64,000 bases of DNA from SAR202 cluster bacterium bin22 (GTDB lineage: Bacteria; Chloroflexota; Dehalococcoidia; Lucifugimonadales; UBA3495): the NCBI GenBank assembly GCA_002238505.1, contig MPMM01000002.1:186001-250000 (forward strand). The letters run 5' to 3'. How positions within the stretch are numbered: position 1 is the first letter of the stretch; every line of letters begins with the position of its first letter. The notes beneath the pieces were generated by a model. It was not told where the DNA came from. It did no database searches and saw only the letters and a program-made list of their open reading frames with translations. Both the position numbers and the translations under genes were made by a program. Below, in pieces: positions 2,635 to 6,385 of this stretch.

Positions 2635-3768
2635 ATGTCAAGACGCCTGTTCAAAGAGTTGGAGCGGTCCTACGGCTTTGACGAAGTTGCCATAGTGCCC
2701 GGCAATGTGACCATAAATCCCGAATTGACATCCACGAAAATGACCATCGGGGAATGCACTTTTGATGCGCCCATGATGGCTTCAGCCATGGATGGCACGG
2801 TTTCTCCCAAGTTCGCTACTTTGATGGACGGACTGGGCGGTCTCGGTGTGCTCAACGGCGAGGGTCTTTACTCCCGCTACGACGACCCCTACGCCATCCT
2901 GGAAGAAATTACCTCGATGCCCCAGGAGGAGGTTACCCAATACCTCCAGCAGGTTTACGCGGAACCGATCAAGGACAACCTGATCGGCAAGAGAGTAGAG
3001 GAAATAAAAGGCGCAGGGTCCACCTGCGCCATTGCTTTTACCCCACAGAACACCAAGCGCATGTCCCCGGCGGCAGTGGAGGCTGGCGCGGACATCGTAG
3101 TCGTACAGTCCACGGTCACCACTGCCCGGCACCAGTCCCGCAGCTATCGGGGCCTGATTTTCGCGGAACTGATTGACTCGCTAAGCGTTCCGGTGGTAGT
3201 GGGCAACTGCGTCAGCTATGACGTGGCCATGGAACTGATGGAAACGGGCGTTGACGGAATACTGGTCGGCGTGGGGCCGGGCGCAGCCTGCACCACCCGC
3301 GAGGTGACCGGCGTGGGAGTCCCCCAGGTGAGCGCTACCCTGGAGTGCGCCGCCGCCCGCCAGGACTATTTCCATCGTACCGGGCGGTACGTCAATGTGA
3401 TTACCGACGGGGGCATCCGGACCGGCGGCGACATGTGCAAGGCCATCGCCAGCGGCGCCGACGGTGTAATGGTCGGGACGCCCTTTGCCCAGGCCGAAGA
3501 GGCTCCGGGTCGGGGCTATAACTGGGGTATGGCCAACGCCCATGCCGAGTTGCCCCGGGGCACCCGCATCAAGGTAGGGACCAGGGCTTCGTTGAAGGAG
3601 ATAATGTACGGTCCCACCTCGGTGACCAACGGCACCCAGAACCTGGTTGGCGCTCTTCAGGTAGCCATGGGTATGTGCGGGGCCTATACCATTCGGGACT
3701 TTCACCAGGCGGAAATGGTCATCGCCCCGGCCATCAAGACCGAGGGCAAGTTCTTCCAGCTTGGTTAG
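2635..3768 (+). CDS. guaB3: GuaB3-family IMP dehydrogenase-related protein
   Basis: A 377-residue (beta/alpha)8-barrel protein of the IMP dehydrogenase/GMP reductase superfamily. It lacks the CBS-domain pair of ordinary IMPDH and has the length of the actinobacterial and chloroflexal GuaB3 group. The start ([20 protein letters not shown]) is typical of that group. The catalytic loop is visible as [20 protein letters not shown] at about residues 211-230, with the Cys that attacks the purine C2. The phosphate-binding segment follows as [19 protein letters not shown], with [12 protein letters not shown] after it. Members are predicted to act in cytosolic purine nucleotide interconversion; whether this one oxidises IMP or reduces GMP is not decidable here. 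It has its own promoter and stands upstream of the selenoprotein gene with a 123-nt gap. Confidence 0.9.
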
Positions 3769-3891: not shown

Positions 3892-4434
3892 ATGGTTTCA
3901 GCGACCGGGACAATTCAGATTCTGGATCCCCGACCGGAGGATGTTCCTGAGGAGAGGGGACTCAGTTCCGAGCTTCCCAGCCTGGAAGGCAAGGTAATCG
4001 GACTGCTGGAGAACCGGAAGTACCACGCGGACTCGTTCCTGCTGGAATTGCAGCGGGTGCTGGAGGAGGAGTACAAGGCCAGGAAGGTGGTCTATGCCTC
4101 CAAATTTACCTTCAGCATGCCCTGCGCCGACGAAACGATAGACACCCTGGTGGAGGAATGCGATGTCGTTGTCCACGGCATCGCGGATTGAGGCTCCTGC
4201 ACGGCGTGGGGTCTCCACGACACAGTAGTAACCGAATCCCACGGGGTTCCGTCGGTCAGCGTCATTACCAGCTCATTCACGCGGGCAGCCCACGCCCGGG
4301 CTGCGGCATTGGGAATGCCGGGGGTGCGCATTGTGGAACTGCCCAGCCCCCTGGCGTCTCGCAGCGTCGAGGAAGTGCAGGCGATGGCCCACGAATATGC
4401 TGAAGAAATCGTGGGATTGCTGACCACCGGATAG
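3892..4434 (+). CDS. UGSC-family selenoprotein with in-frame UGA (Sec100)
   Basis: The frame opens at ATG 3892 after GGGAGG (3877-3882) and reaches a TGA at codon 100 (4189-4191). The same frame continues for 80 codons to TAG at 4432-4434, giving 180 residues. The residues around the TGA read HGIAD-U-GSCTAWGLHD, the signature that names the family annotated in databases as UGSC family (seleno)protein. The downstream half (VTESHGVPSVSVIT, RAAALGMPGVRIVELPSPLA) is protein-like and matches the family pattern as I recall it, so the TGA is read here as selenocysteine rather than stop. A SECIS-like hairpin lies at the expected distance. The U-x-x-C arrangement suggests thiol/selenol redox chemistry, but no activity is known to me. 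It lies 89 nt upstream of the AIM24-like gene, with a terminator between. Sec-insertion genes (selA, selB, selC, selD) are not in the window and must lie elsewhere. Confidence 0.88.
4192..4226 (+). promoter_or_regulatory. Bacterial SECIS-like hairpin downstream of the Sec UGA
   Basis: CGTGG (4205-4209) and CCACG (4215-4219) form a five-pair stem closed by the loop GGTCT (4210-4214). The loop begins 18 nt after the UGA. The E. coli fdhF SECIS, as I recall its sequence, has the same GGUCU apical motif at the same 18-nt distance. This supports SelB-dependent recoding. Lower-stem pairing is imperfect and was not computed. Confidence 0.75.
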
Positions 4435-4459
4435 CGCCAGAAGATAGTGAAACCCTTTT

Positions 4460-4492
4460 CCGCCGGAGTCTTTGGCTCCGGCGGTTGTTTTG
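4460..4492 (+). terminator. Intrinsic terminator after the selenoprotein gene
   Basis: CCGCCGGAG (4460-4468) pairs perfectly with CTCCGGCGG (4476-4484) around a 7-nt loop, followed by TTGTTTTGATT. It would end or attenuate transcription before the AIM24-like gene. Confidence 0.8.
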
Positions 4493-4523
4493 ATTAGGGA
4501 TAAATGGAGGAGGTAGATGTGAT

Positions 4524-5216
4524 ATGCAAACAGTGATTGAATTTGAAGCAAGCTACGCCATGCTTACCGTGGTACTGGAGCCGGGGGAGAGCATAAAGGC
4601 TGAACCCGGGGCCATGGTAGCCCAGCAGGATGTGGAAATGAAAACCGGTTCGGGAGGTGGCGGCCTTTTCGGAGGCATCCGCCGGATGCTGGGCGGAGAG
4701 TCTTTCTTTATCAATACCTTCACCGCCAACAGAGACGGAGGGCAGGTGTGCCTGGCGCCGTCCACTCCCGGCGATATTGGTTCCTTTGCTTTGCCGACGG
4801 GCCGGAACCTGTTTATTCAGTCCAGTTCTTTCCTGGCCTGTACCGATAATGTTCAGACGGACTCGCAGTTCCAGGGATTCCGCGGCTTCTTCAGTGGAGA
4901 GAGCCTCTTTTTCCTGCGGGCATTCTGCGAGCGGGGGGATGGCACGGTCTTTTACAACTCATACGGGGCAATCAAACGCCTGCCGGTGGAGCCAGGCAAG
5001 GAACTGGTGGTGGATACCGGTCATCTTGTGGCTTTCAGCGATGACGTGGACTATTCAATTGGCAAGGTGGGAGGCATCCGGTCACTGCTGGGCGGCGGCG
5101 AGGGTCTGGTGATGAAGTTTCGGGGCAACGGGCACGTGTGGATACAGACCCGCAACCTGGCGTCCCTGGTGGAGAAGCTGATGCCCTTCCTGCCCACGCC
5201 GGACAGGGGGCAGTAA
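4524..5216 (+). CDS. AIM24 / TIGR00266 family protein
   Basis: A 230-residue all-beta protein of the AIM24/TIGR00266 family. The N-terminal half contains EPGAMVAQQDVEMKTGSGGG and a glycine-rich GGLFGGIRRMLGGESFFINTF. A similar block recurs near the C-terminus (GKVGGIRSLLGGGEGLVMKF), matching the internal pseudo-repeat of the family. Its molecular function is unknown in bacteria; the eukaryotic relative is a mitochondrial protein. No signal peptide or membrane segment is evident. It ends 2 nt before the next start codon, so the two genes are almost certainly co-transcribed and coupled. Confidence 0.85.
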   Translation: MQTVIEFEASYAMLTVVLEPGESIKAEPGAMVAQQDVEMKTGSGGGGLFGGIRRMLGGESFFINTFTANRDGGQVCLAPSTPGDIGSFALPTGRNLFIQSSSFLACTDNVQTDSQFQGFRGFFSGESLFFLRAFCERGDGTVFYNSYGAIKRLPVEPGKELVVDTGHLVAFSDDVDYSIGKVGGIRSLLGGGEGLVMKFRGNGHVWIQTRNLASLVEKLMPFLPTPDRGQ

Positions 5217-5218
5217 GG

Positions 5219-6286
5219 ATGAATCCATTGTCCATCCAATCGCGCCGGGTGGAGGTGGAAGCCTCCTTCGACGCTATCCAGGACTACTACGAACAGCAGG
5301 GCTGGACCGATGGACTGCCCGTGGTCCCTGCCACCGAGGATCTGGTGCGCAAGATGCTGCTGCCCTATGGTCAGGACCCTTCGACCAGCCTGGGCGTGGT
5401 ACAGCCCCGGAATGCCAGGGTTACGCTGGAGAAGGTGGCCATTAACGCGGTCATGGCCGGGTGCAAGCCCGAGCACTTCCCGGTGGTGGTGGCGGCGGTG
5501 AAGGCGGCGATGCAGCCGGACTTCAACATAGCGGGCGTGCAGGCCACTACCGGTGGCGCGGCGCCGGTGGTAATTGTTAATGGTCCCATAGCACGGGAGC
5601 TGGAAATCAATGGCGATTCCGGATGCTTCGGACCGGGTTACCGCGCCAATGCTTCCATTGGCCGCGCCCTTAGACTGTTCGTGCGAAACGTGGCGGGGCT
5701 GATACCCGGTGAAATGGACAAAGCCACCCTGGCCCTGCCGGCCCGGTACACCTTCTGCTTCGCCGAGAACGAGGCCCGCAGCCCCTGGGAACCGCTTCAC
5801 GTGGAAATGGGGCTTGACCCTTCGGCCAGCATGGTGACCCTGATGGGAATGCGGGGGATGTACACGATAATGGAAAGCACCTCTCCCACGGGCATCCAGG
5901 TGCTGCGTACCCTGGTGGGTTCCCTCAGGACCATTGGCGTCTCCAACTATTACCAGACGGGCACGGGCGCGCAGTTGGCCCTGGTGCTGTGTCCTGAGCA
6001 TGCTGCAGAAATCCACGCCTCGGGCCTTTCCAGGCAGGATGTGCGGGAGTATATATTCCAGAACGCCCGAATGCCGCTGCGCCGGCTGGAGGGCATTGCC
6101 CACTATGGCAACCGCAATTGGCCCAAGTGGATCGATGAATCGGACCCGGATGCCATGATTCCAATAGTGGGATCGGCTGATGACGTGCTGGTAGTGGTTG
6201 CGGGAGGCGATGGGCGTCATTCAGCATGGCTGGCCGGCTGGGGCGTAACCAGGAGGACAACGGAGGAGATAGAGCGGCCCGAGTAA
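5219..6286 (+). CDS. Uncharacterised conserved protein, WTDGLPV type, likely partner of the UGSC protein
   Basis: A 355-residue cytosolic-looking protein. The open frame extends upstream, but the ATG at 5219 directly after the AIM24 stop is preferred because the extra 27 residues would overlap that gene. Visible blocks include YYEQQGWTDGLPVVPATED near residue 25, NAVMAGCKPEHFPVVVAAVK, GPIARELEINGDSGCFGPGY and NRNWPKWIDESDPDAM. From memory, proteins with the WTDGLPV(V/I)P block occur beside or fused to UGSC proteins, so the neighbourhood fits. Two cysteines (in AGCKPE and SGCFGP) are candidate functional residues. No catalytic family could be assigned. The reading of this and the UGSC gene as one redox system is inference. 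Confidence 0.75.
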   Translation: MNPLSIQSRRVEVEASFDAIQDYYEQQGWTDGLPVVPATEDLVRKMLLPYGQDPSTSLGVVQPRNARVTLEKVAINAVMAGCKPEHFPVVVAAVKAAMQPDFNIAGVQATTGGAAPVVIVNGPIARELEINGDSGCFGPGYRANASIGRALRLFVRNVAGLIPGEMDKATLALPARYTFCFAENEARSPWEPLHVEMGLDPSASMVTLMGMRGMYTIMESTSPTGIQVLRTLVGSLRTIGVSNYYQTGTGAQLALVLCPEHAAEIHASGLSRQDVREYIFQNARMPLRRLEGIAHYGNRNWPKWIDESDPDAMIPIVGSADDVLVVVAGGDGRHSAWLAGWGVTRRTTEEIERPE

Positions 6287-6353
6287 CAATCAAGAACCGT
6301 CCTGCTGGATGGTGTGATACAAGAGTCGGCGCGGTAACAGACGCGCCGCTCCA

Positions 6354-6385
6354 GCCTCGCGGAATAGACCGCGAGGCTTTTTGTT
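6354..6385 (+). terminator. Intrinsic terminator after the UGSC/AIM24/WTDGLPV cluster
   Basis: GCCTCGCGG (6354-6362) pairs perfectly with CCGCGAGGC (6369-6377) around AATAGA, followed by TTTTTGTTT. Confidence 0.85.

Follow-up and report, generated by a model that had tools for sequence, protein, structure and literature searches.

The UGSC selenoprotein and its uncatalogued partner W as candidate halves of a GrdB-like selenoenzyme in SAR202 Chloroflexota and other hosts

The window analysed here, a stretch of 64,000 nucleotides from contig MPMM01000002.1 of SAR202 cluster bacterium bin22, carries three consecutive genes on the plus strand at positions 3892-6286, as a preliminary description of this DNA had stated. 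They encode a selenoprotein of the UGSC family, a member of the AIM24 family and a protein with the motif WTDGLPVVP, in the following called W (Table 1). The stop codon of the AIM24 gene and the ATG of W are spaced by only 2 nt. The order of GuaB3, UGSC and W genes was also found at two loci outside the genus (L085 and L086). A scan of the window against Rfam gave no match.

Table 1. Features of the UGSC-W locus, in positions of the window
Feature	Position	Strand	Evidence and remarks
GuaB3-family IMP dehydrogenase-related gene	2635..3768	+	TIGR01304, 419 bits; syntenic context, outside the enzyme
UGSC selenoprotein, 180 aa, Sec at residue 100, putative GrdB-like Sec domain	3892..4435	+	PF24696/NF041046, read-through, hhalign
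In-frame TGA as selenocysteine codon	4189..4191	+	Aligned-codon comparison; SelB and tRNA-Sec in genome
Bacterial SECIS-type hairpin just 3' of the UGA	4204..4220	+	Comparative test, 116 homologues
Intrinsic-terminator-like hairpin between UGSC and AIM24 genes	4460..4484	+	11 bp stem, T-rich tail; conserved in genus
AIM24-family gene	4524..5216	+	PF01987, 215 bits; genus-specific neighbour
W protein (WTDGLPV type), 355 aa, uncatalogued UGSC partner	5219..6286	+	Pairing and fusion; without Pfam/NCBIfam family
Terminator-like hairpin 3' of W	6353..6378	+	10 bp stem, T tail

Under the standard code the UGSC gene stops at the TGA at 4189-4191; when TGA is read as selenocysteine (Sec), the frame is open to the TAG at 4435 and the UGSC motif occupies residues 100-103 of the product (Sec100-G-S-C103). 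The product lies above the curated cut-offs of both catalogued UGSC families, with 174 bits for PF24696 (cut-off 25) and 144 bits for NF041046 (cut-off 125), and has the same UGSC motif and UGA. The host genome encodes SelB (348 bits, cut-off 242) and a tRNA-Sec with the anticodon UCA (67.5 bits, cut-off 47). At the Sec codon, database sequences and relatives read TGA 134 times and TGC three times, and locus L139 holds a further Cys form. Hosts of the Cys forms are Natrialba, sphingomonads and a Binatia MAG, with TGC occurring in Sec-less lineages. For 116 distinct genes, the 51 nt counted from the UGA had a mean folding z, obtained by comparison with synonymous-codon shuffles, of -1.29 against -0.11 for a control stretch (p 2.5e-12). 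Of the 7 pairs of the SECIS hairpin, which spans positions 16-32 when the U of the UGA is taken as position 1, 6.33 are formed in these homologues, whereas synonymous-codon shuffles reach 4.39 (sd 0.12). Compensatory G-C/C-G exchanges occur in the hairpin. The window's gene forms 6 of the 7 pairs and has the apical loop GUC; minimum-free-energy folding of this sequence alone was no better than for shuffles. A selenocysteine in the window's UGSC is thus credible. It is hardly conceivable that UGSC is a 99-residue protein ending at the TGA, where mechanical ORF calling halts, with a remnant frame downstream, since nearly all relatives keep the protein beyond the TGA, SelB, tRNA-Sec and the hairpin are all found, and the equivalent codon is TGC in Natrialba and sphingomonads.

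The link between UGSC and W, which the preliminary description had drawn from their adjacency, is very strongly borne out by neighbourhood conservation. The window's genome holds four UGSC genes (all with TGA) and four W genes, each W adjoining a UGSC, and one of the four pairs is fused in a single reading frame. Among 201 genomes of the phylum, UGSC was detected in 19 and W in 20, with all 19 in common (Fisher p 1e-25, relatedness ignored). Of the 55 UGSC genes of the phylum, 50 have a same-strand W gene before or after them at a distance of 35-808 bp; for the other five, the contig yielded no W. The pairing recurs in a set of 80 loci from databases, whose hosts are Beta-, Gamma-, Alpha- and Deltaproteobacteria, Chloroflexi, Rokubacteria, Methylomirabilota, Binatia, Nitrospinota, Acidobacteria and a haloarchaeon: 90 of 96 W copies there are paired with a UGSC, at a median gap of 108 bp. 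Three of the six unpaired copies are at contig ends, and the other three (L087, L141 and L150) have no UGSC nearby although their flanks are intact. Fusions of UGSC and W were found in 46 frames including repeats, about 28 of them non-redundant. The distance matrices of 119 UGSC-W pairs correlate with r 0.83 (permutation maximum 0.10), a value to which shared species history contributes. UGSC and W are therefore a near-obligate pair. Copy numbers reach 12 UGSC and 11 W per genome.

Some individual loci deserve mention here. One Chloroflexi contig carries three UGSC-W fusion genes in tandem (L129:5323-10693). In three other fusions (L045, L053 and L143) the Sec position is changed, the motif reading TRSG, MGVT and GGNP, and these are possible non-catalytic paralogues. 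One of the three unpaired W proteins with intact flanks (L087:8037-9041, L141 and L150) is 64% identical to the W of the window.

The preliminary description had included AIM24 as a third partner, and on this point it was not sustained. The second gene clearly belongs to the AIM24 / TIGR00266 family (215 and 208 bits), and the five genomes of the genus, the only ones in which AIM24 adjoins the pair, all have it between UGSC and W. None of the 80 outside loci contains AIM24. Among 20 relatives W was found in 15 and AIM24 in eight, and outside the genus no AIM24 match was near a W match; the AIM24 genes of neighbouring relatives are elsewhere on the chromosome. The slot between UGSC and W holds a different gene in L085 and is empty in L086. 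The terminator that had been noted between the first two genes is confirmed as a terminator-like hairpin with an 11 bp stem at 4460-4484 (CGCCGGAG...CTCCGGCG), which is kept within the genus while its surroundings vary. As AIM24 stands between UGSC and W only in this genus and a terminator follows UGSC, it is probably an insertion, a lineage-specific passenger outside the module, and was rejected as a module member. That all three genes form one functional operon is quite improbable: the 2 nt gap before W and the constant order across the genus would fit, but the conserved terminator divides UGSC from AIM24, the slot is differently filled or empty in L085 and L086, AIM24 is missing from the 80 other loci, and the non-genus relatives with W have AIM24 elsewhere or not at all. 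The different gene in the L085 slot is at L085:7236-7976, and the window's genome contains a second AIM24 gene (G000:C23:53045-53641) remote from the UGSC-W pairs.

The Sec region of UGSC can be related to that of GrdB, the substrate-cleaving component B selenoprotein of glycine, sarcosine and betaine reductase (PF07355; compare PrdB and FarB). Profiles of 63 UGSC and 12 GrdB sequences from the phylum, compared by hhalign, gave a probability of 96.5 and a pairwise E of 7.3e-10, with Sec aligned on Sec. The alignment covers about 94 columns and includes the common motifs U-G-[ST]-C-T, E/G.P and HP. The controls on the same data gave E values of 0.087 for UGSC-GrdE, 0.54 for W-GrdB and 0.29 for W-GrdE. 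Searching a pool of 13,406 frames with the GrdB C-terminal profile retrieved 140 of the 171 UGSC frames at E<10, the best at 3.8e-7. The likeness is confined to columns 327-424 of the GrdB alignment; UGSC, with about 170 aa, resembles only the C-terminal part of GrdB, and PF07355, which describes the full-length domain, was absent among the matches listed for the 63 UGSC members. Judged by these profiles, the Sec region of UGSC is homologous to that of GrdB.

Structure prediction of a natural fusion (L129:7389-8993) resulted in an AlphaFold model with a mean pLDDT of 93.7 and a pTM of 0.93. In its UGSC half, strands and helices alternate in a Rossmann/flavodoxin-like order and Sec is placed in the loop after strand 3. 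Among the PDB matches listed for this model only Rossmann/flavodoxin-like folds appear, mainly covering the UGSC half; by sequence, no credible PDB relatives of UGSC, W or GrdB were found. Taking profile and model together, the Sec domain of UGSC is predicted to be GrdB-like with a Rossmann-like fold, rather than thioredoxin-like; that no thioredoxin fold appears among the listed matches is by itself no proof of this.

GrdB-like genes also occur in other forms in this phylum. The genome of the window has two short ones, L165 (G000:C39:37378-37788) and L167 (G000:C53:155111-155596), which match only positions about 182-347 of the PF07355 profile, and many genomes of the phylum have short forms of this kind. 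Another Chloroflexota genome (G173, loci L169-L205) contains nine GrdB copies, in several loci with a GrdE-type gene beside GrdB, an expansion that is unusual outside classical Stickland fermenters.

For W, neither Pfam nor NCBIfam provided a family match, and no Pfam family was convincingly recurrent among 86 W relatives. Nine residues are invariant in these 86 sequences (G32, A74, A80, G81, C82, G122, N144, E183 and W190). The two cysteines that the preliminary description had singled out differ in this respect: that of AGCKPE (C82) is present in 86/86, whereas that of SGCFGP (C136) is kept in only 23/86. A third cysteine, C180, is found in 75/86. AlphaFold models W alone with a pLDDT of 94.8, so that the structure prediction proposed earlier gave a confident model, but it led to no convincing known fold. 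Foldseek against the PDB returned a single match below 1e-3, a fumarase subunit (E 7e-5, prob 0.91, TM 0.25). In VIA, comparison with class I fumarase gave Z 3.8-4.7 over 183-194 residues, the best Z overall was 4.9, and the similarity to Toblerone-fold hydrolases was lower still. A class I fumarase requires three cluster-binding cysteines, and W, with only C82 invariant, does not conserve such a set. Also W as a homologue of GrdE or GrdB was discarded, as the profile comparison gave no match in either case.

The neighbouring genes of the outside loci encode tripartite tricarboxylate receptors (TctC), enoyl-CoA hydratases, family III CoA-transferases, luciferase-like monooxygenases, MmgE/PrpD proteins, acyl-CoA dehydrogenases and amidases. 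The window genome's own UGSC-W paralogues are near genes for HpaB, luciferase-like proteins and CoA-transferases. These catabolic neighbours point to a role in breaking down organic acids or their CoA esters, and the many copies with differing neighbours suggest that they act on different substrates. Sponge-associated and marine Chloroflexi as well as Sphingomonads are among the hosts, which so extend beyond anaerobes of the kind that use glycine reductase.

We consider it about an even proposition (probability near 0.5) that UGSC and W are two subunits or domains of a selenoenzyme working like component B of glycine reductase. The systems for comparison would be the component B that cleaves the substrate in glycine reductase, its counterpart in D-proline reductase and the fluoroacetate reductase FarBE, with reductive cleavage of a C-N (or C-F) bond as the reaction. 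In GrdB-type enzymes the selenolate of the Sec is the nucleophile that attacks a polarised carbon in the substrate. It expels an amine in the case of glycine and proline, fluoride expulsion from fluoroacetate is proposed for FarB, and a thiol releases the selenium adduct (PMC10298544, PMC10838667). Because the Sec environment of UGSC is the same as that of GrdB, such chemistry is the leading model. Here, the substrate would be a small, organic-acid-like molecule with a polarised carbon; on attack of this carbon by the selenolate of UGSC, an amine, hydroxyl, halide or similar leaving group would be expelled. Cys103 of UGSC, Cys82 of W or both may then resolve the adduct as a selenenylsulfide, from which an outside dithiol would restore the selenol. 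Substrate binding and specificity would be contributed by W, in place of the GrdE/PrdA-type partner of the glycine and proline reductase component B; the profile alignment of W with GrdE gave E 0.29.

Several observations speak against a GrdB-like enzyme. Profile comparison shows no homology of W to GrdE or GrdB, and a pyruvoyl-forming site could not be recognised in W. The hosts are not only anaerobes, some UGSC proteins (L045, L053 and L143) are without both Sec and Cys, and the three W genes with intact flanks (L087, L141 and L150) are without a nearby UGSC. Moreover, kinship of the Sec region is no proof of common chemistry.

It was proposed in the preliminary description that the module is a redox or repair system, and in its sharpest form this would make UGSC-W a thioredoxin-like UxxC thiol/selenol oxidoreductase for disulfides or peroxides. 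The UxxC motif, with Cys103 in 59 of 63 sequences, and the invariant Cys82 of W would suit such an activity, and a survey of 2008 labels UGSC as 'likely Trx-like' (PMC2398784). We nevertheless regard this as unlikely, since the predicted fold is Rossmann/flavodoxin-like, with only such folds among the matches listed, the kinship is to GrdB, and catabolic neighbours and numerous copies are unlike a housekeeping redox protein. With a GrdB-like Sec domain and catabolic neighbours, a redox or repair role is unsupported as such. Less probable still is a lyase, isomerase or transferase of CoA-ester catabolism, in which Sec would serve as nucleophile or base without net redox change and W as a fumarase-like or cyclic-amide-hydrolase-like scaffold. 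The CoA-ester enzymes among the neighbours and the weak fold similarity that Foldseek gives for W and class I fumarase (E 7e-5, prob 0.91) are in line with this. However, a TM-score of 0.25 and a best Z of 4.9 are at chance level, W has one invariant cysteine against the three of the fumarase iron-sulfur cluster, and non-redox Sec catalysis is rare.

As a selenoprotein family, UGSC is already known; PF24696 and NF041046 list this selenoprotein by itself and without an assigned function, whereas here it is half of a pair with W. The GOS selenoproteome survey of 2008 reported UGSC fused to an 'Unknown_1' domain (PMC2398784), so that the earlier judgement of the system as undescribed was only partly right. 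'Unknown_1' may be W; the accessible part of that survey gives neither the trans pairing nor a mechanism. In a literature search that had most subscription papers outside its coverage, we found no report of the trans pairing, the W family or the GrdB kinship, and no paper on selenoproteins in SAR202. Priority for these three points is not certain.

Our results suggest that the GrdB-like pair of UGSC and W is a widespread, uncharacterised selenium enzyme for small-molecule breakdown. UGSC is recast from a 'thioredoxin-like' protein into a GrdB-like half of a putative two-part enzyme whose other half is named, which makes an open question directly testable. More tentatively, and at less than even odds, UGSC-W may represent a new architecture among the Sec-nucleophile reductases, the third after those of glycine/betaine and D-proline reductase, with W in the place of GrdE/PrdA. 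If true, a minimal GrdB-like Sec domain would be combined with a new partner fold and have multiplied in environmental bacteria into many copies, each specific for its substrate, with a Cys form in a haloarchaeon; organic acids or CoA esters would be cleaved at C-X bonds in organisms that are not thought of as Stickland users.
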